This document shows, one piece after another, positions 1,482-64,000 of a stretch of DNA of 64,000 nucleotides. The stretch covers positions 1 through 64,000 of the forward strand of contig NZ_AUDJ01000001.1 in assembly GCF_000425405.1 (NCBI RefSeq). Reading direction: 5' to 3'. The notes beneath the pieces are model-generated. The model was not told the DNA's origin. It saw nothing but the letters and a program-made list of their open reading frames with translations, and did not search any database. The position numbers and the translations under genes were made by a program. Position 1 is the stretch's first letter, and every line of letters begins with the position of its first letter. This stretch comes from Ferrimonas kyonanensis DSM 18153 (GTDB lineage Bacteria; Pseudomonadota; Gammaproteobacteria; Enterobacterales; Shewanellaceae).

Positions 1482-1791
1482 GGTTTTATCGCTCATTGCG
1501 AACTGGAGGGCAGGGAGGAGAGCTTCTCTGGCACCTCGTTTGCTGGACTATTCTTGCTAGAGGCGGCAAAGGTAAAACCATTTAGCCTTACTTGTGTTCG
1601 CTGAAAAGCGGAAATGTAATCCTTTGGAAAGCTGAATGCCTTCTTAACTGCTCGGATCAGTTGGTGCTTATTGTGCGGTAACGCACAAATTAAGTGGAAT
1701 TGACCTTAACTGGGAGGCGTTAGTTGGGTAAGATTCGTGGCAATCAGTGTACATATGTACGCTAACTTTCCTGTTGTGGTGGGAGTAAGTA
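1482..1791. other. intergenic region upstream of acyl-CoA synthetase
   Basis: There is no convincing ORF here. A degenerate partial copy of the array head (TCGCTCATTGCGAAC) lies near 1488-1502, so the array decays into this spacer. The last ~200 bases are AT-richer and should hold the promoter of the synthetase gene. I see no unambiguous -35/-10 pair. Confidence 0.5.
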
Positions 1792-49737: not shown

Positions 49738-50382
49738 TTATTCGTCGGATGAGGCGGCAATAAATTGCACCATTTGTTGGCCGTGAGCTGTTAAAAAGTA
49801 GATCTTGTTCGCATTTTGTTCCACCAGTCCGCTCTGCTTTAATTGGCGCAGGTGAAAATTGAACTGAGTGTGGTTGTCGACGCCCGCCAAGCGGCACAGA
49901 TCCATGAAGCGCAGCTTCTTGTGCAGGGACAGTTGTTGCAATACGGCCCGGCGCATGGGGTTGGACAGCGCCGAAAACACCTTGTTGGCCTCCTCCTCCG
50001 GCAGCGACAGTGCCGGTTGCCGCTGAGCCTGAACCCGTCGGAGGGTGGTGGCCAGGGTCGCCAGGTTAAAGGGTTTGGTGACAAAGTCATCGGCGCCCCG
50101 TTTCATGGCGTCGACGGCGGTATCGACGGTGGCGAAGGCGGTGGTGATGACGATGCCAATGCCGGGTTGCAGTCGCCGCAGGGCGGCGATGGCATCGACT
50201 CCGGTCATGCCCGGCATCACCAGATCCAGCAGCGCAATATCAAATTTTTGCTGTTCGGCCTGATCCAACGCCTGTTCGGCGCTGTGACAACTGACGACGG
50301 TGAAGCCTTCGCAGTGCAGGGCTTCTTCGATAGCACTGTTGAGTTCGACGTCGTCTTCGGCAAGCAGAATCGACAGGGTCAT
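49738..50382 (-). CDS. response regulator with ArsR-like winged-helix output domain
   Basis: 214 residues. The receiver (1-120) has AEDD, phospho-acceptor Asp in LLDLVMPGMTG, TTAFATVDT and TKPFN. The output domain (about 130-205) is an ArsR-type winged helix: VFSALSNPMRRAVLQQLSLHK, LCRLAGVDNHTQFNFHLRQL and LVEQNANKIYFLTAHG. This REC-ArsR combination is uncommon; most regulators end in OmpR, LuxR or Fis-type domains. No metal-binding Cys typical of ArsR sensors is seen. Overlaps the kinase gene by four bases and lies upstream of the octaheme gene. Confidence 0.85.
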   Translation of the reverse strand: MTLSILLAEDDVELNSAIEEALHCEGFTVVSCHSAEQALDQAEQQKFDIALLDLVMPGMTGVDAIAALRRLQPGIGIVITTAFATVDTAVDAMKRGADDFVTKPFNLATLATTLRRVQAQRQPALSLPEEEANKVFSALSNPMRRAVLQQLSLHKKLRFMDLCRLAGVDNHTQFNFHLRQLKQSGLVEQNANKIYFLTAHGQQMVQFIAASSDE

Positions 50383-51764
50383 GAAGCGCTCCTTGGCAGA
50401 GTAAACTGAGCCACCAATCCGGTGTCTCCATTGCTCAGGGTCAGTTCGCCCTGATGCTGTTGAATGATTTGCTGGCAGATGGTCAGCCCCAGGCCGGTGC
50501 CTTGCCCCTGAGGTTTGGTGGTGAAAAACGGGCTCAATGCCTGAGTCAGCAGCGCGGGGGCCATGCCGCTGCCACAGTCACTGATCCTTACCTCAATGCC
50601 GTTGGCGCCGGCAGTGGCACTGATGGTCAGTTTCAGGGTGTCGCTACTGGCATCGATGGCGTTGCTGACCAGGTTGATGATCACCTCTTCCAGCTTGATT
50701 TCGTCACCCATCACCCGCAGGTTCGGTTCCAGATCCAGCTGTACCTGAAACGGCTTGAGTCGATGTTGCATCAGATCCAGGGCCGAATGGATGACTTGAC
50801 CCAGATCGACGGGCTGAACTTCGGCGGTGCTGTTGCGGGCAAAGTGCAGCACCTCCTGGCTGATGTGATTGGCCCGGTTGAGGCCGTGACGAATGCGCTG
50901 TAACTGTTTTTGTTGAGCCTCATCCGGTTGCAGTTGGCGCTCAAGCAGGTCGCAGCCCAGGGTGGCGTAGCTCAATGGCGTCTTGATCTCATGGGCGATG
51001 CCGGAGGCTAACTCTCCGATGGCTCGCAGTTTTTCTCCGCGCATTACCCGTCGTTGCTGCTCCTCAATCTGCTGCTGGTATTCCAAATCAAACAGCTTGA
51101 GCGCCTGCAATAGTCCTAATAGCAGGCCGAAGGCACTGAGCATGCGCACCATGGGCACCCAGATGCCCCAGTTGGAAGAGAGCAGACCGGCAGCGATGGC
51201 GTAGCACAACAGGGCCACGCCACAATAGCCAAACCACTGGGCCCCCTGATGATGGTTGGCGGACAGTTCGCGGGCGTAGTAGATCATGGCGACCCCGGCC
51301 AGGCTGCCGCCGGCCAGGCCGAAGATCCAGCGGGTCAGTTGCACCGACAGCAGCAGTGAGCGTTCCACGGGGAAGATCAGCAGATGAATCAGGGTGGCGG
51401 ACAGATACAATGCCAGCAGTATCGGCACCAGGTAGCTCAGCCAGCGCCGGTGCGGTGCCGCGAGGATGTCCAGCATCTGCCAGGCAAACCACACCAGCGC
51501 CAGGAACGAAATCAGCAGTTTGGCGATACGCAGCAATTTCACCTGTATCCACCACTGCTGAGACAGTTCGCCGCCCACCAGTTTCAGGTACAGTTCGGAC
51601 CATTCGTGGAAGGCATGGGTAAAGCCAAACAATGCCAGCGCCGGCAGCGCCGAGGCGATGGCCAGCTTACTGAATTTGAGGTTACGAAAGCTGATGACGC
51701 AGCCGATGGTGAAGAACACCAGACCGTAGAACAGGTAAACATTGAACAGGATCAGCTCTTTCAT
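50379..51764 (-). CDS. sensor histidine kinase with multi-helix membrane domain
   Basis: 461 residues. About seven transmembrane helices fill residues ~1-230, without a large periplasmic domain. A coiled linker (YQQQIEEQQRRVMRGEKLRAIGELAS) leads to the H-box GIAHEIKTPLSYATLG with His258. The ATPase has NLVSNAIDAS, DCGSGM and GTGLGLTICQQI. The PAS-less NtrB/ZraS-like kinase core suits sensing in or at the membrane, for example of redox carriers or lipids. Cognate of the REC-ArsR regulator. Confidence 0.85.
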   Translation of the reverse strand: MKELILFNVYLFYGLVFFTIGCVISFRNLKFSKLAIASALPALALFGFTHAFHEWSELYLKLVGGELSQQWWIQVKLLRIAKLLISFLALVWFAWQMLDILAAPHRRWLSYLVPILLALYLSATLIHLLIFPVERSLLLSVQLTRWIFGLAGGSLAGVAMIYYARELSANHHQGAQWFGYCGVALLCYAIAAGLLSSNWGIWVPMVRMLSAFGLLLGLLQALKLFDLEYQQQIEEQQRRVMRGEKLRAIGELASGIAHEIKTPLSYATLGCDLLERQLQPDEAQQKQLQRIRHGLNRANHISQEVLHFARNSTAEVQPVDLGQVIHSALDLMQHRLKPFQVQLDLEPNLRVMGDEIKLEEVIINLVSNAIDASSDTLKLTISATAGANGIEVRISDCGSGMAPALLTQALSPFFTTKPQGQGTGLGLTICQQIIQQHQGELTLSNGDTGLVAQFTLPRSAS

Positions 51765-51845
51765 CGGCTAAAGGCTAGCCAATTCCTGAGGTGTCTGCTG
51801 TGACCGCTCTGGGGTTCTGGGGGCAAAAAGGCCGGTAAGGATCAC

Positions 51846-51875
51846 AAAAAAGCCTCCACGGGTGGAGGCTTTTTA
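51846..51875. terminator. bidirectional rho-independent terminator
   Basis: The stem AAAAAGCCTCCAC / GTGGAGGCTTTTT with a short GG loop lies downstream of the dsbA-like gene (minus strand), between it and the kinase gene. Confidence 0.88.
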
Positions 51876-51897
51876 CTGGAATAAGAGGCGTTTCGAT

Positions 51898-52548
51898 TTA
51901 CTTCTGGGTAGCAAGGTAGTTCATCAGGTCGGTCAGTTGTCCCAGAGTTTCGATGTTGCGCATGTTGATCATGTACTTATCGTTGATGATGAAGGTGGGT
52001 ACACTCTGAATGCGAAACTTCTGCTGTTCCATCATCCAGGTCATCACCTTCTTTTGTACCGCTTTGCTGGTGGCGATCTTGTCGTAATCGCTGACGTCGA
52101 CGCCGTTATCGGTAAACACCTTTTTGATGTCATCGCGAGTCTTGATTTTATCCTCTTTCTCGGCGTCGTGGGCGCCCGGGGCGTGATCGTGGGCACCGCC
52201 GGCAAGGATGTCGAACATCGGAATCTTGACCTTGTCGGTCACGCCCATCTCTTGCATTACAGCCAAAGACAGGATCACCTCGTTGCCGATGTCGCTGTTC
52301 ATGAAATCAACGTGCGCCTGTTGGAAGTCGATGCTTTTGTCCAGGCCGGGTTTGATCAGCGGCAGGTAGCGCTTCTCCATGGTGATGCAGTTGTGGCAGT
52401 ACAGGGAGAAGAACTCCTTGATGGTTGGTTGCTCAGTCGCTGGACCCTGGCTCACTACGCTGTAGTGGGTGCCTTCGGTAAATTGGGCTGCCCAGGTCGC
52501 CAGGGGGGCGATCATCAGGGCGACGGCTAGGGCGATACGCTTGCTCAC
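51898..52548 (-). CDS. dsbA: DsbA-like thiol:disulfide oxidoreductase, CHNC active site
   Basis: 216 residues: signal peptide (MSKRIALAVALMIAPLATWA) and a thioredoxin fold with inserted helices. The active site in FFSLYCHNCITMEK reads CHNC, where E. coli DsbA has CPHC. A cis-Pro loop SVPTFII is present. A His/Asp/Ala-rich insert (GGAHDHAPGAHDAEKED, about residues 118-134) is unusual. It probably introduces disulphides in the periplasm. In this heme-rich locus, a role in cytochrome assembly is possible but unproven. Confidence 0.85.
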   Translation of the reverse strand: MSKRIALAVALMIAPLATWAAQFTEGTHYSVVSQGPATEQPTIKEFFSLYCHNCITMEKRYLPLIKPGLDKSIDFQQAHVDFMNSDIGNEVILSLAVMQEMGVTDKVKIPMFDILAGGAHDHAPGAHDAEKEDKIKTRDDIKKVFTDNGVDVSDYDKIATSKAVQKKVMTWMMEQQKFRIQSVPTFIINDKYMINMRNIETLGQLTDLMNYLATQK

Positions 52549-52934
52549 AATGTGTGTCCTCGTTGTCTCTACAGGAGAAATAAGTGGGGGAACCGTTCAG
52601 GGGCCTAAGCTAACCTATGGAGCTACTGCAAGGTCAATAAATATCGCTTTCAATCTGCACTAATGTTGAACTGGTTCGCTTTTTGCCAACTCTTCGGTTT
52701 CAGGCGGAACTTTTTGGCGTTTTAACGAGTGAGTGGTACAGGTTGGGGAAGGGTTTTTTTCGACCGCGGTTGGGGGGCGCTGGGGCCGAGGCCCAGAGCA
52801 CGGTCGCGTTTGTGGGCATCGACCGTGGCCAACATCAGTCGTCCTAACTCAGGCAGTGGTGGATAACCTGCCGATTCAACCGGCAGCGGTCGGTGCTGAC
52901 TAGATAGCCACCCCGCTGCCAGTGGTGGCGGCCA
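52549..52934. other. gap between dsbA-like and ubiK genes
   Basis: 386 bases. AT-rich near the dsbA side, which should hold its promoter; GC-rich toward ubiK. After the ubiK TGA, the same minus-strand frame stays open for ~75 codons, but has no independent start and ribosome site. I call no gene here. Confidence 0.45.
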
Positions 52935-53210
52935 TCAGGCTTGAGGCTGTTGGTCGTCCTGGTCAACGGTCGGCTGGCCTTCCAGGGTTGCTAGGCGTGC
53001 TTCCAGTGCCTCGACCATCTGGCGGGTTTTGGCCAGCACAGCCGTTTGACGATCGAACTCTTCGCGGCTGACCATGTCCAGCTTGGACAGCTGGCTTTGC
53101 AGAATGGTTTTGGCCTTGGCTTCGAAGTCGTCTGCGGCGGCCTTGATACCGGAGGGCAGGGCGTCGTTCATCTGCTTGGCGATTTGTTCCAGTTTATCCG
53201 TATTGATCAT
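52935..53210 (-). CDS. ubiK: ubiquinone biosynthesis accessory factor UbiK
   Basis: 91 residues: MINTDKLEQIAKQMNDALPSG with an amphipathic start and a C-terminal coiled coil (TAVLAKTRQMVEALEARLATLE). It matches the YqiC/BMFP family, which supports aerobic ubiquinone synthesis with UbiJ. ATG at 53210 is chosen (frame open to 53237). Divergent from rep. Confidence 0.9.
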   Translation of the reverse strand: MINTDKLEQIAKQMNDALPSGIKAAADDFEAKAKTILQSQLSKLDMVSREEFDRQTAVLAKTRQMVEALEARLATLEGQPTVDQDDQQPQA

Positions 53211-53338
53211 GGTTTCATTACTCCGTAACGCTTGCATTTATGGTAACAAAGTTTGCCTGGGGATTCCCCCTTTGTTCGGTTGCGGCGCTGAGCGGTCGTT
53301 TTAGGTAGAATGACGCGGTATTTTGGTTTGGAGCAACA

Positions 53339-55354
53339 ATGAGACTTAATCCTGGTCAGCAGGCGGCTGTGGAGTTCGTATCCGGCCCCTGTCTGGTGTT
53401 GGCGGGTGCCGGCAGTGGCAAAACCCGGGTGATCACCAATAAGATCGCCCACCTGGTGCAGCAGTGCGGTTATCAGGCTCGGCACATTGCTGCCGTGACC
53501 TTTACCAACAAGGCGTCCCGCGAGATGCGGGAGCGGGTGGCGCAGACTCTGGGCAAGAAAGAGGCTCGGGGGCTGTGGGTGTCGACCTTCCATACCCTGG
53601 GGTTGGAGATCATTCGCCGTGAGCACAAGTCGCTGGGACTCAAGCCCAACTTTACCCTGTTTGACGATCAGGACAGCCTGGCCCTGCTCAAAGAGCTGAC
53701 CGCCGATGAGCTGGAGGAAGACAAGGACCTGCTCAACCAGCTGATCAGTACCATCAGCAACTGGAAAAACGATCTGATCCTGCCGGCCAAGGCCACCGAA
53801 CTGGCCCAGGATGCACAAACGGCGTTGTTTGCTCAGCTGTATCAGCGCTACCGGGATCATCTGCAGGCCTACAATGCCCTCGATTTCGATGACCTGATCA
53901 TGGTGCCGACCTTGCTTCTGGCCAGCAACGAAGAGGTGCGGGATCGCTGGCAGAACCGCATTCGTTACTTGCTGGTGGACGAGTATCAGGACACCAACAC
54001 CAGCCAGTATCAGTTGGTGAAGCTGTTGGTGGGCAACCGAGCCCGCTTTACCGTGGTGGGGGACGACGATCAGTCGATCTACTCCTGGCGTGGTGCCAAG
54101 CCGCAGAACCTGGTGCTGTTGCAGAAGGATTTCCCCAAACTGAATCTGATTAAGCTGGAGCAGAACTACCGTTCCAGCCAGCGAATACTGAAGTCGGCCA
54201 ACATTCTGATCGCCAACAACCCGCACGTGTACGAGAAAACCCTGTTCTCCGAGCTGGGCTATGGCGACACCCTCAAGGTGCTCAGTGCCAACAACGAGGA
54301 CCATGAGGCCGAGCGGGTGGTGGCCGAACTGATTCGGCATAAGTTCGTGAATCGCACCGACTACAAGGAATACGCGGTGCTGTATCGGGGCAATCACCAG
54401 GCGCGACTGTTTGAAAAGGCGATGATGACCAACCGCATCCCCTACAAACTGTCTGGCGGCACCTCGTTTTTCTCCCGGGCGGAGATCAAAGACATCATGG
54501 GTTACCTGCGATTGCTGGTGAACGCCGATGACGACAACGCCTTTCTGAGGATCTGCAACGTGCCCAAGCGCGGGCTGGGACCGGCAACGCTGGAGAAACT
54601 GGGGCGTTTGGCCAATAAACGTCAGATCAGCCTGTTTGCGGCGGCATTTGAGCCGGACATGGAGCAGCACCTGCCCAAGGGCGCGGCCGAATCGGTGATG
54701 GTGTTTACCCGTTGGGTGGTGGAGCTGGCGGATCGGGCTCAGCGCGGCGATACCCTGGCGGCGCTGAAGGACCTGGTGCGAGAGATCAACTACGAAGATT
54801 TCCTCTACGACACCTCGCCCAGCCCCAAGGCGGCCGAGATGCGGATGAAGAACGTCTCCGAGTTGTACCGCTGGATCACCGACATGCTCGAAGGCGATGA
54901 GCTGGAAGAGCCGATGACCCTGCCTCAGGTGGTGACTCGGCTGACCCTGAGAGACATGATGGAACGCAACCAGGAGGACGAGGAATCGGATCAGGTGCAA
55001 CTGATGACGCTGCACGCCTCCAAGGGATTGGAGTTCCACTATGTGTTCATGGTGGGCATGGAGGAGGGATTGTTGCCGCACCAGAGCAGCCTCGATGAAG
55101 GCAACGTCGAGGAGGAGCGGCGACTGGCCTACGTCGGCATTACCCGGGCCCAGAAAGAGCTGATTTTCACCCTGTGTCGGGAACGGCGCCAGTACGGTGA
55201 ACAGATCCGTTGTGAACCCAGCCGGTTCCTGGCGGAATTGCCCCAGGATGATCTGGAATGGGATCGAGGCAAAAAGCGTCAGAGCGAGCAGCAGCGGCAG
55301 CAGGCGGGCAAGGCCAATATTGCCGCGTTGCGGGCGATGTTGAAGGGAAAATAG
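53339..55354 (+). CDS. rep: ATP-dependent DNA helicase Rep
   Basis: 671 residues, UvrD/Rep superfamily 1A helicase. [20 protein letters not shown] (Q motif), Walker [22 protein letters not shown] (motif II), [12 protein letters not shown] (motif III), QNYRS (motif IV), [11 protein letters not shown] (motif V) and VGITRAQ (motif VI). Unwinds 3'-5' and clears protein blocks ahead of forks. It is monocistronic; the tRNA cluster follows. Confidence 0.96.
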
Positions 55355-55435
55355 GGTTTTGCGAACGGAGTCAGTGACAAAAAGCGCCGGGTTAGCTATT
55401 TTTTGCTCGGTTGAACGGTTTTTCTTGAAAAATTG

Positions 55436-55465
55436 TTGGACGTTGGCGGGCGTTCACCGTAAGAT
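55436..55465 (+). promoter_or_regulatory. probable promoter of the tRNA-Arg/tRNA-His operon
   Basis: TTGGAC (55436-55441), an 18-base spacer and TAAGAT (55460-55465), followed by the GC-rich discriminator GGCCGCC, as is typical of stringently controlled tRNA promoters. Confidence 0.5.
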
Positions 55466-55483
55466 GGCCGCCGTCAAAAGGAA

Positions 55484-55560
55484 GCGCCCATAGCTCAGCT
55501 GGATAGAGCGCACCCCTCCGGAGGGTGAGGCCGGGGGTTCGAATCCTCCTGGGCGCGCCA
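55484..55560 (+). tRNA. tRNA-Arg (anticodon CCG)
   Basis: 77 nt including encoded CCA. Acceptor GCGCCCA / TGGGCGC, D-arm AGCTCAGCTGGATAGAGC, anticodon loop CTCCGGA (CCG) and T-loop GGTTCGAATCC. The architecture is standard. Confidence 0.96.
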
Positions 55561-55597
55561 TGTTCTTTGCGCGTGGCATGACGAAAAAAATCTCTAT

Positions 55598-55674
55598 GGT
55601 GGCTGTAGCTCAGTTGGTAGAGTCCCGGATTGTGATTCCGGTTGTCGTGGGTTCAATCCCCATCAGCCACCCCA
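55598..55674 (+). tRNA. tRNA-His (anticodon GTG)
   Basis: 77 nt with the extra 5' G (G-GTGGCTG) and encoded CCA. Anticodon loop TTGTGAT (GTG at 55632-55634). T-loop TTCAATC is seven bases. Downstream of tRNA-Arg by 37 bases, probably same transcript. Confidence 0.95.
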
Positions 55675-55681
55675 TATTCTG

Positions 55682-55709
55682 AAAAGCCAGTCGAAAGACT
55701 GGCTTTTTT
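55682..55709 (+). terminator. rho-independent terminator of the tRNA operon
   Basis: The stem AAAAGCCAGTC / GACTGGCTTTT with a GAAA loop and T run lies eight bases after tRNA-His. Confidence 0.92.
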
Positions 55710-55743
55710 GGTTCCTGGCCTCGGAAACTGGAGCTTTCGCTTC

Positions 55744-55820
55744 GGGGCTTGTAGGCCAAATCGAATGAGCCCCGGATTGTGAGTCGGGCCGAGGTGGGTC
55801 AATCCCCGGGAGCCACCCCA
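55744..55820 (+). pseudogene. decayed tRNA-His copy
   Basis: The 3' half (CCCGGATTGTGA.. and GTCAATCCCCGGGAGCCACCCCA, in part AGCCACCCCA at 55811-55820) clearly derives from tRNA-His. The 5' half is degraded: TTGTAGGCCAAATCGAATGAGC against TGTAGCTCAGTTGGTAGAGT. The anticodon stem is broken, so it is probably nonfunctional. It is followed by a copy of the same terminator at 55828-55855. Confidence 0.85.
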
Positions 55821-55827
55821 TATTTTG

Positions 55828-55855
55828 AAAAGCCAGTCGAAAGACTGGCTTTTTT
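55828..55855 (+). terminator. duplicated terminator after the tRNA-His pseudogene
   Basis: Stem, loop and T run are identical to the terminator at 55682-55709; duplicated together with the tRNA. Confidence 0.88.
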
Positions 55856-55976
55856 GGTTTCTGGCCTCGGAAACTTGAGTGTCCAGTCTCGTACTCTGTC
55901 CATCCCATCTGTCACCGAACCGTCCTAAAATGGCACTCCGCAAGGTGAGTGTTGTGTTTGCCGGATCCGCAGAAAT

Positions 55977-56014
55977 AAAAAAACCGCAGGCCGATGGCGC
56001 TGCGGTTTTTTTTT
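55977..56014 (-). terminator. terminator after moaA
   Basis: AAACCGCAG (55981-55989) pairs with CTGCGGTTT (56000-56008). T/A tracts on both sides allow use in both directions; moaA ends 18 bases away on the minus strand. Confidence 0.88.
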
Positions 56015-56031
56015 GATCGGCAAAGGCGGGG

Positions 56032-57018
56032 TTAGCCGCCGGTCAGACTCATAAAGCGCAGAATCTGAGTGCCGTCGTCGTGGCCGAACAGGTGCTTTTC
56101 CGGTTTGACCTTCATGGCGGTCACGATGGCGGCCTTCACCGCTTCTACGTCACCGTCGTTGTCCCGCAGTACCTGTTTCAGATCCACCGAGTTCTCGTTG
56201 CCCAGACACAGCAGCAGTTCCCCTTTCACGGTGACCCGGACCCGGTTGCACTCATGACAGAAGTTGTGGCTGTGGGGAGAGATAAAGCCGATGCGCGACT
56301 CGCTGCCTTCCATGCGGTAATAACGCGCCGGACCGCCGGTGCGCTCACTGCTGGGGATCAGCGGGTAGGTTGGCTCAATCAGCGCTCGCACCTCTTCACT
56401 GGTACACAGGGTCTGTTCACGGCGATCGGTGTCGAAGGCGCCCAGCGGCATCTCTTCGATGAAGCTGATGTCGATGTTGCGGTCACGGGCGAAGTTGACC
56501 AGGTCCAGCACTTCGTGGTCGTTCTTGCCTTTCATCACCACGGCATTGAGCTTAACCCGCTCAAAATTGGCGTCACAGGCGGCGTCGATGCCGGCCAGTA
56601 CCCGCTCCAGGTTGCCCTTGCGGGTCACCTGAGTGAAGCGTTCCGGTTCCAGGGTGTCCAGGCTGATATTGAGGCGCTGCAGACCGTTGCCGGCCAGTAC
56701 ATGGGCGAACTTGGTCAGTCGAGAACCGTTGGTGGTCATCGACAGATCTTTCAGTCCGGGCAGTTTGCCGAGTTTGCGCACCAGCACCGGCAGGTCGGTG
56801 CGCACCAGTGGCTCGCCACCGGTCAGGCGGATGCGTTCAACACCGAGTTCGGTGAAGGCGCGGGCGATGGTACCTAACTCTTCCAGGGTCAGGACGTCGT
56901 CCCGTCTCAGGAAGGTGGGATTCTCGTCCATGCAGTAGACGCAGCGGAAGTCACAGCGGTCGGTGACCGACAGCCGCAGGTAATCGATTTTGCGTCCAAA
57001 GCCGTCTATCAGGCTCAT
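56032..57018 (-). CDS. moaA: GTP 3',8-cyclase MoaA
   Basis: 328-residue radical-SAM enzyme making the first intermediate of molybdenum cofactor from GTP. The N-terminal SAM cluster is CDFRCVYC. GGEPL follows, the C-terminal cluster is in CHECNRVRV and CLG, and the protein ends with the Gly-Gly tail (SLTGG) needed for function. Last gene of the minus-strand tupABC-mobA-mobB/moeA-moaA run, 15 bases after the fusion gene. Confidence 0.95.
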   Translation of the reverse strand: MSLIDGFGRKIDYLRLSVTDRCDFRCVYCMDENPTFLRRDDVLTLEELGTIARAFTELGVERIRLTGGEPLVRTDLPVLVRKLGKLPGLKDLSMTTNGSRLTKFAHVLAGNGLQRLNISLDTLEPERFTQVTRKGNLERVLAGIDAACDANFERVKLNAVVMKGKNDHEVLDLVNFARDRNIDISFIEEMPLGAFDTDRREQTLCTSEEVRALIEPTYPLIPSSERTGGPARYYRMEGSESRIGFISPHSHNFCHECNRVRVTVKGELLLCLGNENSVDLKQVLRDNDGDVEAVKAAIVTAMKVKPEKHLFGHDDGTQILRFMSLTGG

Positions 57019-57033
57019 TCTGTGTTCCTCGCT

Positions 57034-58833
57034 CTACAACAGATCCGCGAAGGGTTGTACCCAAACGCTGTCGCCGGCGGCGACGTCACCCTGGCACTCT
57101 TCGACCACGATCAGGCAGTTGCCTTCTACCATGGAGCTGAGTATGCCGGAGCCTTGGGCGCCGGTGGTGGTCACCGTCAGTTCGCCCAGGGCGTTGAGCT
57201 GCATTATGCCACGCTGGAATTCGGTTCGACCGACTTTACTGCGAAGCGGTTCACAAGTTGTGGCCCGCATCATCTGTGGCTTCCAGTTTGGCTCGCCCAT
57301 CATCTTGCGCAGGGCCGGTTGGACAAACTGCATGAAGGACACCATTACCGCTACCGGGTTGCCAGGCAGGCCAAACAACAGGGTGTCGTTGATCTTGCCA
57401 AAGGCCAGCGGTCGGCCCGGGCGCATGGCGATTTTCCAGAAATCAATGCTGCCCAGTCGCTCCATCACCGGCTTGATGAAATCGGCATCACCGACGGAGA
57501 CGCCGCCGGAGGTCAATACCACGTCGGCGGTTTCACTGGCTTCCTGCAGGGCAGACGCCATCGCCTCTTCGGTGTCTTCGAGGATACCCAGATCGATCAC
57601 CTCGCAGCCCAACTTGGCCAGCATACCCTGAATGGTGAAACGGTTAGAATCGAAGATGCAGTTGGGCTTCAGCGGTTCACCGGGTTGGCAGACCTCGTCG
57701 CCGGTGGAGAACACCGCCACTTTAGGGCGACGCAATACCGGCAGTTGTCCCAGACCCAAAGAGCCCAGCAGGCCCAATTCGGCGGGGCCGATGCGCTTGC
57801 CGGCGGTCAGGGCACAGGCGCCTTCGGCGATGTCTTCGCCGGCCTTGCGGATGTTCTGCCCCAGCTCGATCTCGGTCTGGAAGCACACCTGATCCCCTTG
57901 CTGATCGGCCACTTCGCGCATGATCACCGCGTTGGTGCCTGCAGGAACCGGCGCACCGGTCATGATCTTCACCGCCTGGCCCGGCTGCAGCGTGCCGTCG
58001 TAGCCGTATCCGGCCAGTACCTCGGCGACCACGGTGTAGTGGCTGGCTTGAGGGTCATGACAGATGGCGTAGCCATCCATGGCGGAGTTGGTGTGCTGAG
58101 GCACGTTGATCGGTGAGGCCATGTCCTGTGCCAGCACTCGATTCTGAGCATCCAGCAGCGACAGGGTTTCGGTGCTGGACACCGGTTTGACCTCTTTCAG
58201 AATGCGGGCGATGCCCTGGGCAACCGACAGCTGTTTGCGCTCGACGTCGTCGCAACCACAGCTACCCAGTGGCGCGTAGCCCACCGGTTTCCAGTCGGCG
58301 ACGAAAGATTCGATGAAGTTGGCGATGGCATCGACGTCGTTGATGTCCATCACCGGCAGGCTCAGATCCGCAGGCAGTTGAGTCTCGGCATCCACCGCCA
58401 GGGCCTGAATGGCGTCATCCTGAGTGTAAACGAACGGCTTGCCGACTTCGGCGCGGTGCAGTTCCAGCTTCGGCAGAGGCAGCTTTTTAAAGCCCTCCAC
58501 CAGAATCATGTCGACCCGGCTCTGGTCGATCATCGCCAGCAACTCTTTCAGGTCCGGATCACCGTCGGTGATTTTCTCCGCCATCAGGCAGCGGCGTACG
58601 TGTGAGGCGACCAGCATCTGCTCGGCGCCGGCTTTGCGCAGCTCGTAAGAGTCTTTGCCGGGAATGTCGACATCGAAGTTGTGGTGAGCGTGCTTAACCA
58701 CCGCCAGACGCTTGCCGCGGCGGTTGAGCTCAGGAATCAGTTTTTTCAGCAGCGTGGTTTTACCGGTGCCGCTGTAGGCACAGATACCCAGAACCGGAAC
58801 CCGGCAATCCGCCAGGATTTGATCCACATTCAT
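57034..58833 (-). CDS. moeA: MobB-MoeA fusion protein
   Basis: 599 residues joining two cofactor steps. Residues ~1-170 are MobB-like, a GTP-binding adaptor with P-loop GICAYSGTGKTTL. Residues ~205-599 are MoeA, molybdopterin molybdenumtransferase, with PQHTNSAMDGYAI, KIMTGAPVPAGTNAV, STGDEV, TSGGVSVGDADF and LPGNPVAVMVSF. Usual MoeA is about 400 residues, so the fusion is real and frame-continuous. Molybdenum (or tungsten) insertion is thereby linked to the guanylyltransferase partner encoded upstream (mobA). Confidence 0.92.
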   Translation of the reverse strand: MNVDQILADCRVPVLGICAYSGTGKTTLLKKLIPELNRRGKRLAVVKHAHHNFDVDIPGKDSYELRKAGAEQMLVASHVRRCLMAEKITDGDPDLKELLAMIDQSRVDMILVEGFKKLPLPKLELHRAEVGKPFVYTQDDAIQALAVDAETQLPADLSLPVMDINDVDAIANFIESFVADWKPVGYAPLGSCGCDDVERKQLSVAQGIARILKEVKPVSSTETLSLLDAQNRVLAQDMASPINVPQHTNSAMDGYAICHDPQASHYTVVAEVLAGYGYDGTLQPGQAVKIMTGAPVPAGTNAVIMREVADQQGDQVCFQTEIELGQNIRKAGEDIAEGACALTAGKRIGPAELGLLGSLGLGQLPVLRRPKVAVFSTGDEVCQPGEPLKPNCIFDSNRFTIQGMLAKLGCEVIDLGILEDTEEAMASALQEASETADVVLTSGGVSVGDADFIKPVMERLGSIDFWKIAMRPGRPLAFGKINDTLLFGLPGNPVAVMVSFMQFVQPALRKMMGEPNWKPQMMRATTCEPLRSKVGRTEFQRGIMQLNALGELTVTTTGAQGSGILSSMVEGNCLIVVEECQGDVAAGDSVWVQPFADLL

Positions 58834-58835
58834 AG

Positions 58836-59447
58836 TTACGAATCCTTATCTGCCAGCAGCAGTTGCTCTAGCTGATCTCGCTGCTCGGCTGTATTGATAT
58901 TGGCAAAGGCCTGCGCTTGGCCTGCAAAGGTCACTTTGGTGACTCGATGTTGGTTGTACCAAAGTAAAATCTTGCGATCGCCATTGGCCAAAAAGGCATC
59001 AATGGAGTCCGTCAGGTTTGCTTTCATCAGCAGGATGACGGAGTGCTCGCGCTCATCGTCGCAGGCTACGGCGATCTCTGCATCGGTGGCTTGCAATTGC
59101 TCGAGCAGTTTGTGAACCAGGTCACGGGGGGCCATGGGGACATCGCAGGGGAGTACCACTAAATAGGGAGTGGTGCAGTGGGCCAGCGCGGTGCGCATGC
59201 CCGCCATCGGCCCTTGAAAGCCTTCCAGGTCATCGGCATGAACCGGGTAGCCCAGTTGCCGGTATCGGTCCTGGTTGCGGTTGGCGATGATCTGTACCTG
59301 GGCCGCGTCGTCGGCGAAGCGATCCAGAACATGGCTGACCATGGGCTTTCCGGCGACGGTGATCAGACCTTTGTCTTCACCGTCCATGCGACGGGCCCGG
59401 CCACCGGCCAGTACCGCAAGGGTAATACGTTGATCTATTGCTGACAC
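58836..59447 (-). CDS. mobA: molybdenum cofactor guanylyltransferase MobA
   Basis: 203 residues: nucleotidyltransferase motif LAGGRARRMDGEDKGL near the N terminus, KPMVSHVLDR and LPCDVPM. Attaches GMP to molybdopterin to make the bis-MGD cofactor of enzymes such as DMSO/nitrate reductases. It overlaps tupC by 13 bases and is two bases from the MobB-MoeA start. Confidence 0.93.
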   Translation of the reverse strand: MSAIDQRITLAVLAGGRARRMDGEDKGLITVAGKPMVSHVLDRFADDAAQVQIIANRNQDRYRQLGYPVHADDLEGFQGPMAGMRTALAHCTTPYLVVLPCDVPMAPRDLVHKLLEQLQATDAEIAVACDDEREHSVILLMKANLTDSIDAFLANGDRKILLWYNQHRVTKVTFAGQAQAFANINTAEQRDQLEQLLLADKDS

Positions 59448-60112
59448 GCGTAGGGTTCCTCGCTGACAGATTGAAGCAGGTGACCATTATGCAACTGCCA
59501 GCGTTGCCGGCACAGCTTAGTGACCTCGGTGGTTTGATGGCTGGTAACCAGAATGCCGCACCCCTGTTGTTGCAGTTGAGTCACCATCTTGGCGACCACC
59601 TCGATGGAGTGGTCATCCAGGTTGGCGGTGGGTTCGTCCAGCATCAGAATCTCCGGCCGCACCACCCAGGCGCGGGCCAATGCCAGTCGCTGCCGCTCAC
59701 CGCCGGACAACACCTGGGCAGGACGATCGACCAGGTGGGCCAGTTCGGCTACCTCCAGCGCTTGCTCGATTCGCCGTTGCTGCTCCTCTTTACTGAGGGA
59801 CTGCAGGCTGAGGCTGTAGGCCAGGTTCTGCTGGACGCTGCCGTCGAACAGGTAGGGAGTCTGGTGCAGATAAACAATTTGACCGGCGCCGATACGCAGT
59901 CGCCACCAGGGGCCGTTGGCCCCGTCCACTTGGCGACTGCCGCGGTCCGGTTTTCGCAGTCCGGCCAGGGTTTTCAGTAGGGTGGTTTTGCCGACGCCAT
60001 TGGCGCCTCGCAGCCAGACACTCTGGCCGCTGCCGATGCTGATGTGGTCGATATTGAGCAATGGCCGACCATCGATGCTGATCAGCAGGTCCGACAGCGA
60101 AACTTTAACCAT
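59435..60112 (-). CDS. tupC: tungstate ABC transporter ATP-binding protein TupC
   Basis: 225-residue ABC ATPase: Walker A GANGVGKTT, signature LSGGERQRLALARA, Walker B ILMLDEPTANLD and switch TSHQ. Context (TupA/TupB genes, cofactor genes) gives the tungstate assignment; a molybdate role is not excluded. Overlaps tupB by eight bases. Confidence 0.9.
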   Translation of the reverse strand: MVKVSLSDLLISIDGRPLLNIDHISIGSGQSVWLRGANGVGKTTLLKTLAGLRKPDRGSRQVDGANGPWWRLRIGAGQIVYLHQTPYLFDGSVQQNLAYSLSLQSLSKEEQQRRIEQALEVAELAHLVDRPAQVLSGGERQRLALARAWVVRPEILMLDEPTANLDDHSIEVVAKMVTQLQQQGCGILVTSHQTTEVTKLCRQRWQLHNGHLLQSVSEEPYACQQ

Positions 60113-60812
60113 GTTGTCGGTGCTCCTGTTTGCCGCGCAGCGCGCTCAGAGAAAAGTTTAGCAACAGCGCCAAAAACACCAGCACCATTCCCAGTGCTGC
60201 CGCCTGAGCGAACTCGCCCTTGCTGGTTTCCAGGGCGATGGCGGTGGGCATGTTTCGGGTCAGGTTTTGAATGTTGCCACCCACCAGCATGGAGCTGCCC
60301 ACTTCGGTGATGATGCGGCTGAAGGCGGCAATGATAGCCACCATCAGTGGTACCCGCAATTCATGGCACAGGGTGATAAAGGCACGCAGCTTGGTGGCAC
60401 CCAGGGTACGGGCGGTTTCCCAGGCGCGCCAGTCGCCGGCACTGAAGGCGGCATAACTGGTGGACACCAGCACCGGGGTGGCCAGAAATATCTGACCCAG
60501 CATCATGGCGTTTTGGGTAAACAGCCAACGCAGATCGCCCAGCGGTCCTTGACGGAACAGCAACAGGTAGACCATCAGACCCACCACCACCGTTGGGATG
60601 GCTTGCAGGGTCTGAAACAGGGCGATGAGGGTGGCACGGCCAAAAAAGCGCCCCTGTGCAAGCACGAAACCCGCCAGGATGGCGGGTATCAGGCACAGGG
60701 CCATGGCTTTGACGGACACCGAAAAGGACACCAGGATGATGCTCCAGACTTTCGGGTCAAAGCTAAGCAGCAGGCCAATGGCCTGCTGTAGGGTTTCGAG
60801 AGTACTACTCAT
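60105..60812 (-). CDS. tupB: tungstate ABC transporter permease TupB
   Basis: 235 residues with about five or six transmembrane helices. The EAA-like loop ETARTLGATKLRAFITLCHELRVPLMVAI faces the ATPase (key part TLGATKLRAFITLCHELRVP). GSSMLVGGNIQNLTRNMPTAIALE is typical of TupB/WtpB-like permeases. Five bases separate it from tupA. Confidence 0.91.
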   Translation of the reverse strand: MSSTLETLQQAIGLLLSFDPKVWSIILVSFSVSVKAMALCLIPAILAGFVLAQGRFFGRATLIALFQTLQAIPTVVVGLMVYLLLFRQGPLGDLRWLFTQNAMMLGQIFLATPVLVSTSYAAFSAGDWRAWETARTLGATKLRAFITLCHELRVPLMVAIIAAFSRIITEVGSSMLVGGNIQNLTRNMPTAIALETSKGEFAQAAALGMVLVFLALLLNFSLSALRGKQEHRQHG

Positions 60813-60817
60813 TCACG

Positions 60818-61615
60818 CTACTTATTGTAGGTTGCTCTAAACAGAGGCTGACCCTGAACGCGGAACGCGTCGATCAGTTTTTGACCTTTGTCGCTGGCCA
60901 GCCAGTCGCTGAATGCCTTGGCGCCTTCGTGGTTCAGATCAGGGTACTTCTTATCGCTGATCAGAATCACCTGGTAAGGGTTCATCAGCGACGCATCGCC
61001 TTCAAACAGTACCTTCAGCTTCAGTTTGTGCATGAAAGCCAGGTAGGTACCGCGGTCTGCCAGCAGGTAACCCTGCATTTCGTTGGCGGTCAGCAGTGCT
61101 GGACCCATGCCCTGGCCGATGGCGCGGTAGCCGTCGTAGTCGGTAGTGACACCGGCTTTTTTCCACAGGTTCAGTTCTTTCATGTGGGTGCCGGACTCAT
61201 CGCCACGGGATACGAAGATGGCGTTGCTGTCGTGGATGCGCTTCATGGCATCGACGATGCCCTTGGCGTCAGCCAGCTTGGCTGGATCGCTGTCCGGGCC
61301 GAGAATGATGAAGTCGTTGGCCATGATCTGACGAGGCATGCGGCCGAAACCGTCCTCGACAAATTTAGCCTCGGCGCCTGGGGCGTGAGTCATGACCACA
61401 TCCACATCGCCGTTACGGCCGTGGCGCAGGGCCTTACCGGTACCGGTGGCGATCACCTGAACGTGGTAACCGCTGTCTTTTTCGAAAGTAGGCAGCAGGT
61501 AAGCCAGCAGGCCTGAGTTGTCAGTGCTGGTGGTGGTGGCCAGTTTAATGTCCTGCGCTGCGAAAACCGCAAAGCTAAGGGTGAAGGCCAACAAGCCAGT
61601 CAGTATGCGCTTCAT
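60818..61615 (-). CDS. tupA: tungstate-binding periplasmic protein TupA
   Basis: 265 residues: signal peptide (MKRILTGLLAFTLSFAVFA). The TupA hallmark TTTSTDNSGLL directly follows the mature start. GTGKAL and VDVVMTHAPGAE are the oxyanion-binding blocks shared with the family. ATG at 61615 with GGAGAAATTG is chosen over the frame to 61630. A sigma54-type promoter lies just upstream, facing this gene. Confidence 0.94.
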   Translation of the reverse strand: MKRILTGLLAFTLSFAVFAAQDIKLATTTSTDNSGLLAYLLPTFEKDSGYHVQVIATGTGKALRHGRNGDVDVVMTHAPGAEAKFVEDGFGRMPRQIMANDFIILGPDSDPAKLADAKGIVDAMKRIHDSNAIFVSRGDESGTHMKELNLWKKAGVTTDYDGYRAIGQGMGPALLTANEMQGYLLADRGTYLAFMHKLKLKVLFEGDASLMNPYQVILISDKKYPDLNHEGAKAFSDWLASDKGQKLIDAFRVQGQPLFRATYNK

Positions 61616-61666
61616 CAATTTCTCCGTCATTTGAATAGATGTTGCTGTGTTCTACTCAAAATACAT

Positions 61667-61682
61667 AGCAAGGAGGGTGCCA
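61667..61682 (-). promoter_or_regulatory. sigma54 (-24/-12) promoter of tupA
   Basis: Minus-strand TGGCAC (61682-61677), five bases, TTGCT (61671-61667) fits the sigma54 consensus TGGCAC-N5-TTGCW. The expected start point near 61656 leaves about 40 bases before the tupA ATG. The neighbouring divergent gene is a sigma54-dependent activator. Confidence 0.82.
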
Positions 61683-61703
61683 ACCTGTATCGGGTGGAAA
61701 ATA

Positions 61704-61748
61704 TGACCCAGGTCACAGGATTTGGCTGGTCAACTAGGTCAAAATGAC
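61704..61748. promoter_or_regulatory. candidate activator-binding sites upstream of tupA
   Basis: Inverted pairs TGACC-CA-GGTCA (61704-61715) and GTCA-AAA-TGAC (61738-61748), with a further GGTCA at 61728-61732. They lie 20-80 bases upstream of the -24 element, so they may be enhancer sites for the divergent NtrC-type regulator and/or autoregulation. Confidence 0.5.
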
Positions 61749-61827
61749 GCACCCTTTGTGGTGCCTTAGCCAAAATGCCCTAGTTTGCGACATATTGGCT
61801 CCATTTGCCTCGAGAAAAGAAGAGATT

Positions 61828-63201
61828 ATGACTCAAGAATCGTTTCAGGCTCCGGCGTTATCGGTGTTGATTGTGGACGATGAGCCGGGCATGCGCTCAT
61901 TTTTGAAAAAAGCGCTGTCGAAGCGGTTTGCCCTGGTGGAAGCTGCCGGCAGTGTCGAGGACGCCGAGCGTCTGCGCAGCCGTTGCCATTTTGATCTGTT
62001 GATCGTCGACATTCGCCTGCCGGGCCGCGATGGCATCGAGTGGAACGAGGCGCTGGATCCGGGCAGTCGTCGTTCGGACATTATCTTTATGACCGGCTAT
62101 GCCGACATGGAAACCGCCATTCGCGCCCTGCGGGCCGGCGCCGCCGACTTTATTCTGAAACCCTTCCATCTGGAGCAGATGATGCAGGCGGTGGATCGCT
62201 GCCTGGAGCGACGGTTGCTGCGCCGGGAAAACTTGCTGCTGAAGCGGGAAGTGGAGCAGAGCCACGTCGGCCACAACACCCTGATTGGCATCAGCGACGC
62301 CATGGCGCAGGTGAAGGACGTCATTGGCCGGGTCGCCCCCACCAATTCGGTGGTGCTGATCGAAGGCGAGTCGGGCACCGGCAAGGAGTTGGTGGCGCGG
62401 ATGCTGCACCAGAAGTCCGGTCGCAGCGGGCCTTTCGTGCCGGTGAACTGTGGCGCCATCGCTCCGGAGTTGCTGGAGAGTGAGTTGTTTGGCCATGTGG
62501 CCGGGGCCTTTACCGGTGCCCGTAGTGCACGGGAAGGGCTGTTCAGCTTTGCCAGCGGCGGTACCATCTTCCTCGATGAGATTGGCGAAATGCCGCTGCA
62601 GATGCAGACCGCACTGTTGCGGGTGCTGGAGCAGCGGGCCATTCGGCCAGTAGGCTCGGAAAAGGAGACGCCGGTGGACGTGCGGGTGATCGCCGCCACC
62701 AACCGTGAGCTGATGGATGAGGTCAATGAAAACCGCTTCCGCCGCGACCTGTATTACCGGCTGAACGTGCTCAACGTGCGCATTCCAGCCCTGCGGGAGC
62801 GTCAGGATGACATCGTTGAGCTGGTGCATCACTTTACCCGTCAATTGTCGTCGGAACTGGGCCTGAAAGAGGTCAGCTGGAGCCACGAAGACCTGGATTT
62901 GATGACTCGCCACGACTGGCCGGGCAACATTCGTGAATTGCGAAACCTGGTGGAGCGCTGCCTGTTGCTGGGCAAGCCGCCGGCGGAGTACTGGCGTCAG
63001 CAGCAGAGCGTGCCGGTGGCGTCGGCCGAGGCTACCGAGAGTGGCTACCCTAACGAGATGCCGCTGAAAGAGGTGGAGCGGATGCACGTGATGCAGGTCG
63101 TGGACAGTCAACAAGGCAACAAATCGGCCGCTGCCCGAGTGCTGGGAGTGTCTCGCAAGACCCTGGATCGTAAATTCAAAGAGTGGGGCTTGCAGGAGTG
63201 A
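61828..63201 (+). CDS. NtrC-family sigma54-dependent response regulator
   Basis: 457 residues. The receiver has IVDDEPGM, phospho-acceptor Asp in IVDIRLPGRDG and LKPFH. The AAA+ domain has Walker A GESGTGKE, the intact sigma54-contacting GAFTGA loop, Walker B GGTIFLDEIGEMPL and RFRRDLYYRLNV. The Fis-type C-terminal HTH is NKSAAARVLGVSRKTLDRKF. ATG at 61828 is used; the frame runs back to 61744 without a ribosome site. TGA overlaps the kinase ATG by one base. Divergent from tupABC. Confidence 0.94.
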   Translation: MTQESFQAPALSVLIVDDEPGMRSFLKKALSKRFALVEAAGSVEDAERLRSRCHFDLLIVDIRLPGRDGIEWNEALDPGSRRSDIIFMTGYADMETAIRALRAGAADFILKPFHLEQMMQAVDRCLERRLLRRENLLLKREVEQSHVGHNTLIGISDAMAQVKDVIGRVAPTNSVVLIEGESGTGKELVARMLHQKSGRSGPFVPVNCGAIAPELLESELFGHVAGAFTGARSAREGLFSFASGGTIFLDEIGEMPLQMQTALLRVLEQRAIRPVGSEKETPVDVRVIAATNRELMDEVNENRFRRDLYYRLNVLNVRIPALRERQDDIVELVHHFTRQLSSELGLKEVSWSHEDLDLMTRHDWPGNIRELRNLVERCLLLGKPPAEYWRQQQSVPVASAEATESGYPNEMPLKEVERMHVMQVVDSQQGNKSAAARVLGVSRKTLDRKFKEWGLQE

Positions 63202-64000
63202 TGCTGTCCTCCTGGCGCGATCGAATCGAAGGGGATGTGCGGCTGCTGACCAGCACCGTGCGTTACCGTTTGCTGGTGCTGATGCTGTTGCCGGTGCTGC
63301 TGACCCTGGCCAGCCTGGTGTTCATTACCATCTACTGGAACGTCTCCTACACCGGCAGCCAGCTGTTTATGAAGGTGCGGGCGGATCTCGGCGTGGCTCA
63401 GGGGGTGATCCTGGAGCAGCTCAATGATCAGGAGCAGGTGATCTCTCAGGTTCAGAGTGCCTGGCGCCTGAAGAGCCTGCTGGGGGCCAAAGATTCCCAT
63501 GGGGTGGCCATCAATCAGCTGCTGGAACGCAACCGCGAGTTGTTGGGCCTGGATTTTCTGCGCTTGATTTCATTGCCGCAGGCCTCGGTGGATCCACGCC
63601 TTCGTAAACTGATTCCGGCGGAGCATGAGCGGGCCCGCTCCGGTATTCAGGTGCTGGACAAGCCGGAGCTGGCGGATCTGGGGCCGGTGCTGGCGCGGCA
63701 GGCGCAGATGCCAATCCAATCGACACCGATGGCCGCCGACAGCGTTCAGGGGATGGAGAGCCGCGGCATGGTGATGCGCACCCTGCTGAAGGTCAAAGAC
63801 ACCGATGGAACCGTGGTCGGCTACCTCGATGGCGGTGTGTTGCTGAACCGCAACCGCGACATGGTGGATAACATTCGCGATCTGCTGTACGCCCCGGGCA
63901 CTCTGCCCAACGGGGCGGTGGGGACCGTGACGCTGTTCCTGGATAACGTGCGCATCAGCACCAACGTTCCCGGTGGCGACAGCGGTGAACGGCGGGCCAT
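63201..64000 (+). CDS. sensor histidine kinase with Cache-like periplasmic domain (partial)
   Basis: 266 codons are present and the frame is open to the window end. ATG overlaps the regulator stop (CAGGAG upstream). One transmembrane helix lies at about residues 23-46 (RLLVLMLLPVLLTLASLVFITIYW). A large periplasmic region follows with RVQGxE-like DSVQGMESRGM, DTDGTVVGYLDGGVLLNRN and VTLFLDNVRISTNVP, blocks seen in double-Cache sensor kinases. The kinase core lies beyond the window. Partner of the preceding regulator; its ligand may be tungstate, molybdate or a related condition (inference). Confidence 0.85.
   Translation, partial: MLSSWRDRIEGDVRLLTSTVRYRLLVLMLLPVLLTLASLVFITIYWNVSYTGSQLFMKVRADLGVAQGVILEQLNDQEQVISQVQSAWRLKSLLGAKDSHGVAINQLLERNRELLGLDFLRLISLPQASVDPRLRKLIPAEHERARSGIQVLDKPELADLGPVLARQAQMPIQSTPMAADSVQGMESRGMVMRTLLKVKDTDGTVVGYLDGGVLLNRNRDMVDNIRDLLYAPGTLPNGAVGTVTLFLDNVRISTNVPGGDSGERRA

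Follow-up and report, generated by a model that had tools for sequence, protein, structure and literature searches.

Which signal, acting through which regulator, switches on the tungstate-type uptake genes near the end of the 64,000-nucleotide stretch analysed here (positions 1 to 64,000 of contig NZ_AUDJ01000001.1 of Ferrimonas kyonanensis DSM 18153; henceforth the window)? The operon that begins with tupA is read from the minus strand, and divergently from it lie genes for an NtrC-family response regulator and a Cache-type sensor histidine kinase, which the first-pass annotation had taken for a membrane-sensing sigma54 route to tungstate uptake. Comparative sequence analysis makes it highly probable that the promoters, the upstream site, the two sets of target genes and the co-occurrence of the system are as described below, and it tips the balance somewhat toward a formate-type sigma54 two-component system that would supply both an enzyme, formate dehydrogenase, and its metal cofactor. 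The sensor and its regulator very probably activate both gene sets, for uptake of the metal (tungstate or molybdate) and for the enzyme that depends on it. The control elements and the regulatory pair in the window are as follows:

61667..61682, minus strand: sigma54 -24/-12 promoter of tupA, near-consensus, rare in the genome and kept in 59/59 regulator-linked loci
61702..61717: CRP-like site, reading TGTGACCTGGGTCATA on the minus strand; CRP-like sites are enriched in the organism's own family only
61738..61748: palindrome GTCAAAATGAC, probable binding site of the regulator, centre at -87; perfect in 57/59 regulator-linked loci
61789..61799: weaker second copy of the palindrome (one mismatch), centre at -138
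61828..63201, plus strand: NtrC-family response regulator, SO_4718 orthologue by gene context
63201..64000, plus strand: sensor histidine kinase, residues 1-266 of 696 (remainder at contig positions 64001-65291)

The promoter is a near-perfect sigma54 site, TGGCAC-CCTCC-TTGCT, which runs down the minus strand from 61682 to 61667 and faces tupA, with the GG and GC elements of a sigma54-dependent promoter at the correct spacing. With its GC taken as -13/-12, transcription is predicted to start at 61656, leaving a leader of 41 bases (first given as 40) down to the tupA ATG at 61615, which is preceded by GGAG. The pattern TGGCAYNNNNNTTGCW has 20 matches across the genome of 4.93 Mb (7 on the forward and 13 on the reverse strand) versus a single one for the backwards control pattern, and none of 40 shuffles of the tupA-regulator intergenic region reached an equally good sigma54 score.

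The regulator was detected in 28/60 relatives, own genome counted (E at most 1e-100), and in 45/247 genomes of the order (E at most 1e-130), all of which fall among the 47/247 with TupA (E at most 1e-50). Combined, the two sets comprise 59 distinct regulator genomes, and the tupA-regulator region was inspected in each of these and in two further genomes, G111 and G141. In all 59, tupA and the regulator are divergent neighbors, a kinase match follows, and TGGYAY-N5-YTGC precedes tupA on the tup strand; the stricter TGGCAY-N5-TTGCW is found in 57, the exceptions being G001 (CTGC) and G006 (TGGTAT). G111 has TupA and lacks the regulator; here tup adjoins fdhD and there is no TGGYAY-N5-YTGC site. 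In G141 (L051) the tup operon is intact, the regulator and kinase persist as short decayed remnants, the sigma54 box ends in TTGCC, and the palindrome is gone. The sigma54 site facing tupA, near-consensus, rare and conserved in all 59 regulator-linked loci, is thus real, as is its synteny with tupA, the regulator and the kinase in those loci; together with the upstream site and an RpoN encoded in the genome (PF04552), these features support the proposed control of tupA by sigma54 and the divergent two-component system.

The GGTCA-based inverted sites noted earlier upstream of the promoter are likewise real, and are of two kinds: the conserved palindrome at 61738-61748, and the CRP-like site at 61702-61717, where TGACCCAGGTCA (61704-61715) sits within TATGACCCAGGTCACA. 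A GGTCA direct repeat also occurs at 61728-61741. When spaced 4-base palindromes were counted in 60 sigma54-matching regions (the 59 regulator-linked ones and G141), GACA-N3-TGTC emerged in 44 and GTCA-N3-TGAC in 14, the latter form being present in all 14 own-genus loci; in each of five shuffles the commonest palindrome reached between 4 and 8 loci. The merged form G[AT]CA-N3-TG[AT]C is perfect in 57/59 regulator-linked loci, has one mismatch in the remaining two, and is absent from both regulator-less tupA loci (G111, G141). Defining a pair as the palindrome followed by a sigma54 site within 40-190 bases, we found it at 56/59 regulator-linked tupA loci (misses: G001, G183, G261), in none of 20 shuffle rounds, and at 0/2 regulator-less loci. 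The palindrome on its own, used for a genome-wide regulon search, gave 11 matches versus 17 for the backwards control. A copy of the form GTCATTTTGAC, with a sigma54-like site, lies between genes that by eye look norV-type and norR-type (L112, contig C2:115643); NorR may use the same letters, and this copy was excluded from the count of targets.

CRP-like sites (TGTGA-N6-TCACA with up to two mismatches) occur in 12/14 own-genus tup regions (shuffle maximum 6), in 15/17 of the Shewanella type (shuffle maximum 8) and in 9/30 of the others (shuffle maximum 11), so no enrichment is seen outside the first two groups. Their presence in the Shewanella-type regions is consistent with an anaerobic module with a CRP motif, which includes SO4718 in the accessible part of its description (PMC2667191). 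Together with the further NtrC-type genes in the genome, the CRP-like site could be read to mean that another NtrC-type regulator serves the tupA promoter, or that tupA is mainly CRP-driven, the divergent pair being a mere neighbor; yet the palindrome, sigma54 site and adjacent regulator stand together in 56/59 loci, and loci without the regulator lack the palindrome too, which makes this very improbable.

What else the regulator might control is suggested by the same palindrome-promoter pair, which, in what seems to be a new observation, also precedes a formate dehydrogenase operon. This operon lies on the same contig about 7 kb beyond the locus at the window's end, outside the stretch covered by the first-pass annotation. 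A palindrome at contig positions 68784-68794 stands between two sigma54-like sites that point away from each other, TGGAACGAATTTTGCT toward fdhD and TGGAACGCTTTTTGCT toward a DUF3305-DUF3306-iron-sulfur (FeS)-chaperone-formate dehydrogenase series; a third pair, with its palindrome at 69896, lies ahead of the FeS gene. A search for the DUF3305 marker covered 28 of the 59 regulator genomes together with G111 and G141; 29 of these 30 have it, G141 being the exception. The pair is present at the formate dehydrogenase cluster in 26/28 regulator genomes (misses: G001, G009) and in none of 10 shuffle rounds, and is absent in G111, the sole regulator-less genome tested that has the operon. As the same query found the marker in 0/25 other regulator-less genomes, G111 is the only regulator-less control for this gene set. 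The placement of the element varies: within the organism's own family the palindrome precedes DUF3305 in 16/18 genomes, and in other families the pair precedes the FeS gene in 10/10, as it also does in 4/8 own-genus genomes; the other-family genomes additionally have sigma54-like sites, without the palindrome, at fdhD or DUF3305.

The large subunit of formate dehydrogenase is missing from G141 (best match 38%) and is present at 65-66% identity in three of its genus-mates; G024, G028 and G032 lack it along with the regulator and TupA, and G111 has it (66%) without the regulator. We count G141, which has lost the enzyme, the palindrome and all but remnants of the regulator and kinase while keeping tupA, in favor of a formate-linked regulon. 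The same genome bears on the view that the kinase senses tungstate or molybdate, directly or via TupA, formate dehydrogenase being co-controlled since it requires the metal. The adjacency of the kinase-regulator pair to tup in 59/59 loci speaks for that view, as do the names printed for Shewanella oneidensis in the accessible text of two studies, namely 'two component Sigma54 specific transcriptional regulator for tungstate (molybdate) transport' for SO_4718 (PMC2667191) and 'Tungstate-responsive histidine kinase' for SO_4717 (PMC5148205). Against it, G141 keeps tup and not the pair.

To see how far the element extends, the DNA pattern alone (GACAWWWTGTC-N50-80-TGGCAYN5TTGCW) was scanned over the GTDB genome collection, where at least 118 loci matched. 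Among the matches listed, Shewanella and Vibrio account for 14 loci with tupA and 19 with formate dehydrogenase (in the 6 Vibrio formate dehydrogenase loci the element comes before the FeS gene), and one Methylococcaceae locus has tupA. In a further 21, all alphaproteobacterial, the kinase next to the element has a homologous sensor (36-40% identity over 314-343 residues); 20 of these also match the DNA-binding domain of the regulator, with a similar recognition helix. The remaining 63 matches listed have no tupA, formate dehydrogenase or homologous sensor within the stretch examined, and may reflect chance or other systems. In the Methylococcaceae metagenome-assembled genome (L250:4292-8000) the element precedes an outer-membrane-like gene and tupA, and the divergent regulator combines a related DNA-binding domain with an odd receiver.

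Downstream of the element in 16 inspected alphaproteobacterial sensor loci, the first gene codes for a major facilitator superfamily (MFS) transporter in nine, recognized by family scan in L172 and L201 and by shared N-terminal sequence in the rest; for FdhD in L193; for ClpB in L149 and L156; and for DnaK in L263, with three being ambiguous or cut off. The element also precedes a superoxide dismutase gene in the alphaproteobacterial L185. In L172 (Bradyrhizobium), a NuoE/NuoF-like gene and then a NuoG/formate dehydrogenase alpha-like gene follow, a combination that would fit a soluble NAD-linked formate dehydrogenase; the NuoE/NuoF-like gene is also recognizable by its start in L177, L214 and L240, giving four alphaproteobacterial loci with formate dehydrogenase-like genes. 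These targets raise the prospect of the same regulon answering to another small carboxylate, such as lactate or oxalate, or to a redox or stress cue: the L172 and L201 transporters score best against the L-lactate family and then the oxalate/formate antiporter family, and in L149, L263 and L185 the element is followed by genes for ClpB, DnaK and superoxide dismutase, respectively. We consider this quite unlikely, given that formate dehydrogenase is the common target in the gammaproteobacterial lineages and that the PDB matches of the sensor are formate complexes. The alphaproteobacterial pairs also weigh against sensing of tungstate or molybdate, as they adjoin transporter, FdhD, chaperone or formate dehydrogenase-like genes, and no tup was seen in the 8-kb loci with homologous pairs.

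The sensor itself points in the same direction. The kinase, which starts at 63201, shares one base with the regulator gene and runs beyond the window to contig position 65291, combines an sCache_3_3 domain (E 5e-26; 91.5 bits against a Pfam cut-off of 28.8) with HAMP, HisKA and HATPase_c domains. The only PDB sequences recovered by the sensor profile below an E-value of 0.001 are 8PY0 and 8PY1, both formate complexes. In an alignment of the sensors from 25 of 29 loci tried (L230, L159, L193 and L252, where gene prediction missed the kinase, being left out), the Arg (R251 in the window's kinase) and Thr(+3) with which PacF-type domains bind formate are invariant, and the third position of the PacF set (R142, T145, T158) is Ser or Thr, with Ser in this genome. 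Arg and Thr(+3) are common to the kinase and the formate-binding Cache chemoreceptor domains (8PY0, 8PY1, PacF), from which it differs in being a histidine kinase, in the membrane-proximal position of the matching module, and in the third residue, Ser. By these residues and matches, the sensor resembles a detector of formate more closely than one of tungstate, as which it has been described, and the chances that formate is the signal of the kinase appear roughly balanced. Since its relatives of known structure bind formate, we regard tungstate or molybdate as an unlikely signal. Oxyanion sensing, implied by the first-pass annotation, is accordingly doubtful on three counts: the site shared with formate dehydrogenase, the alphaproteobacterial pairs beside other genes (formate dehydrogenase-like ones in four loci), and the formate-bound PDB matches. 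The first-pass reading of the signal was probably wrong or incomplete.

Published data fit the two target sets. In the accessible part of a study of Vibrio parahaemolyticus, deletion of rpoN lowers VP1501 (log2 -1.45), VP1508 (-1.84) and VP1510-VP1515 (-3.2 to -4.8); VP1501, VP1508 and VP1510 are marked as V. cholerae RpoN chromatin immunoprecipitation sequencing peaks, with sites listed; and in a gel shift RpoN by itself showed no binding to the VP1510 promoter (PMC9817140). The VP1501 site sequence occurs in 15/227 Vibrio genomes, and all 10 places inspected precede tupA with the regulator divergent, from which we infer that VP1501 is tupA. On those data, RpoN is needed in Vibrio for full expression of both the probable tupA and the formate dehydrogenase operon (PMC9817140): both gene sets carry RpoN sites and fall in the deletion, and the VP1501 site is identical to Vibrio tupA sites. 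That work, in its accessible part, names no activator, a role for which we propose the regulator and its palindrome. Co-expression in other studies, as far as their text was accessible, also speaks for the regulon: VC1510-VC1518 and VC1523-VC1524 rise in a V. cholerae riboflavin transcriptome (PMC5816637), SO4502-SO4506, SO4509 and SO4719 are listed as lowered in an S. oneidensis SO2426 mutant (PMC2535785), and a Fur/RyhB study puts SO_4719 and SO_4720 in one class with SO_4513, a subunit of formate dehydrogenase (PMC5826389).

In S. oneidensis, SO_4717 and SO_4718 lie beside SO_4719/SO_4720 (TupA/TupB), the same association of kinase, sigma54 regulator and tup genes as here, and the Shewanella loci examined (MR-1 not among them) have the same gene set and promoter. 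The sigma54 two-component control of tup, which had been thought distinctive, is thus supported, but the idea is not new, being present in the printed S. oneidensis annotation. As far as its accessible text goes, that annotation mentions neither a binding site, nor formate dehydrogenase as a target, nor formate as a ligand; comparison of sequences adds where the regulator is likely to bind, formate dehydrogenase as a second target, relatives of the system in Alphaproteobacteria, and a sensor that is likely to detect formate. In the literature searched, most subscription journals being outside its reach, we recognized no paper describing this regulon.

The uptake and cofactor genes form a tight minus-strand cluster from 61615 down to 56032, in which neighboring genes overlap or are 2 to 15 bases apart:

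60818..61615, minus strand: tupA, tungstate/molybdate-type binding protein
60105..60812, minus strand: tupB, permease
59435..60112, minus strand: tupC, ATPase
58836..59447, minus strand: mobA
57034..58833, minus strand: mobB-moeA fusion
56032..57018, minus strand: moaA

The binding protein scores 215 bits, below the curated cut-off of 400 of NCBIfam NF041772, and is hence labeled TupA-like; its strong PDB matches are 3LR1 (tungstate-binding) and 5MY5. Domain scans agree with the first description of the divergent pair, the regulator comprising a receiver, a Sigma54_activat AAA+ domain with an intact GAFTGA characteristic of the NtrC family, and a Fis-type HTH. ModE and TunR regulators control oxyanion transporters, a role shared by the present system, which is of the sigma54 two-component type. 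The TOBE domain (PF03459) has 0 matches in this genome, with the same query matching 12/14 control genomes, so no ModE-type protein was found, in keeping with the claim that control here is not of the ModE/TunR type. Another one-component oxyanion regulator may be present in an HTH_17 and PBP_like (PF12727) protein, which in its second half is similar to the terminal part of molybdopterin biosynthesis fusions and whose gene (L005:6910-7815; contig C1:66910-67815) overlaps fdhD.

An RNA element was considered as a control and rejected, with Rfam giving only two tRNAs in window positions 50000-64000 and nothing in L005. At 55484-55943, two tRNA genes are followed by short open frames with a repeated SEARNQKSQSFDWLF-like stretch. 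Elsewhere in the window, another perfect sigma54 site, TGGCACCTCGTTTGCT (1529-1544, plus strand), lies some 250 bases upstream of a gene resembling acyl-CoA synthetase genes (1792-3630), and at 49738-51764 (minus strand) a response regulator, by eye with a receiver and an ArsR-like winged helix, adjoins a histidine kinase with many membrane spans.

We propose that the periplasmic Cache domain of the kinase is engaged, most likely by formate, and that the kinase would then phosphorylate the regulator, which would bind the GWCA-N3-TGWC palindromes and, through its GAFTGA loop, open sigma54-RNA polymerase at two gene sets: tupABC-mobA-mobB/moeA-moaA for metal uptake and cofactor synthesis, and the fdhD/formate dehydrogenase genes about 7 kb away in this genome. 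Synthesis of the enzyme would thereby be matched to the supply of metal and cofactor. FhlA of E. coli, a one-component, cytoplasmic, formate-sensing sigma54 activator tied to molybdenum supply, likewise couples sigma54 activation to formate metabolism, with a membrane kinase and receiver-domain regulator taking its place here. The fullest form of the proposal, in which the 'tungstate-responsive' kinase is a formate sensor and a one-element sigma54 regulon activates formate dehydrogenase in Gamma- and Alphaproteobacteria and, in the gammaproteobacterial lineages, also the metal uptake and cofactor genes, is tentative and falls a little short of an even chance. If true, it would identify what activates the RpoN-dependent formate dehydrogenase in Vibrio and Shewanella, correct the printed ligand annotation, and provide a clear case in which the substrate of a metalloenzyme, and not the metal, turns on metal import, in a regulon that the palindrome and its spacing make predictable from sequence.

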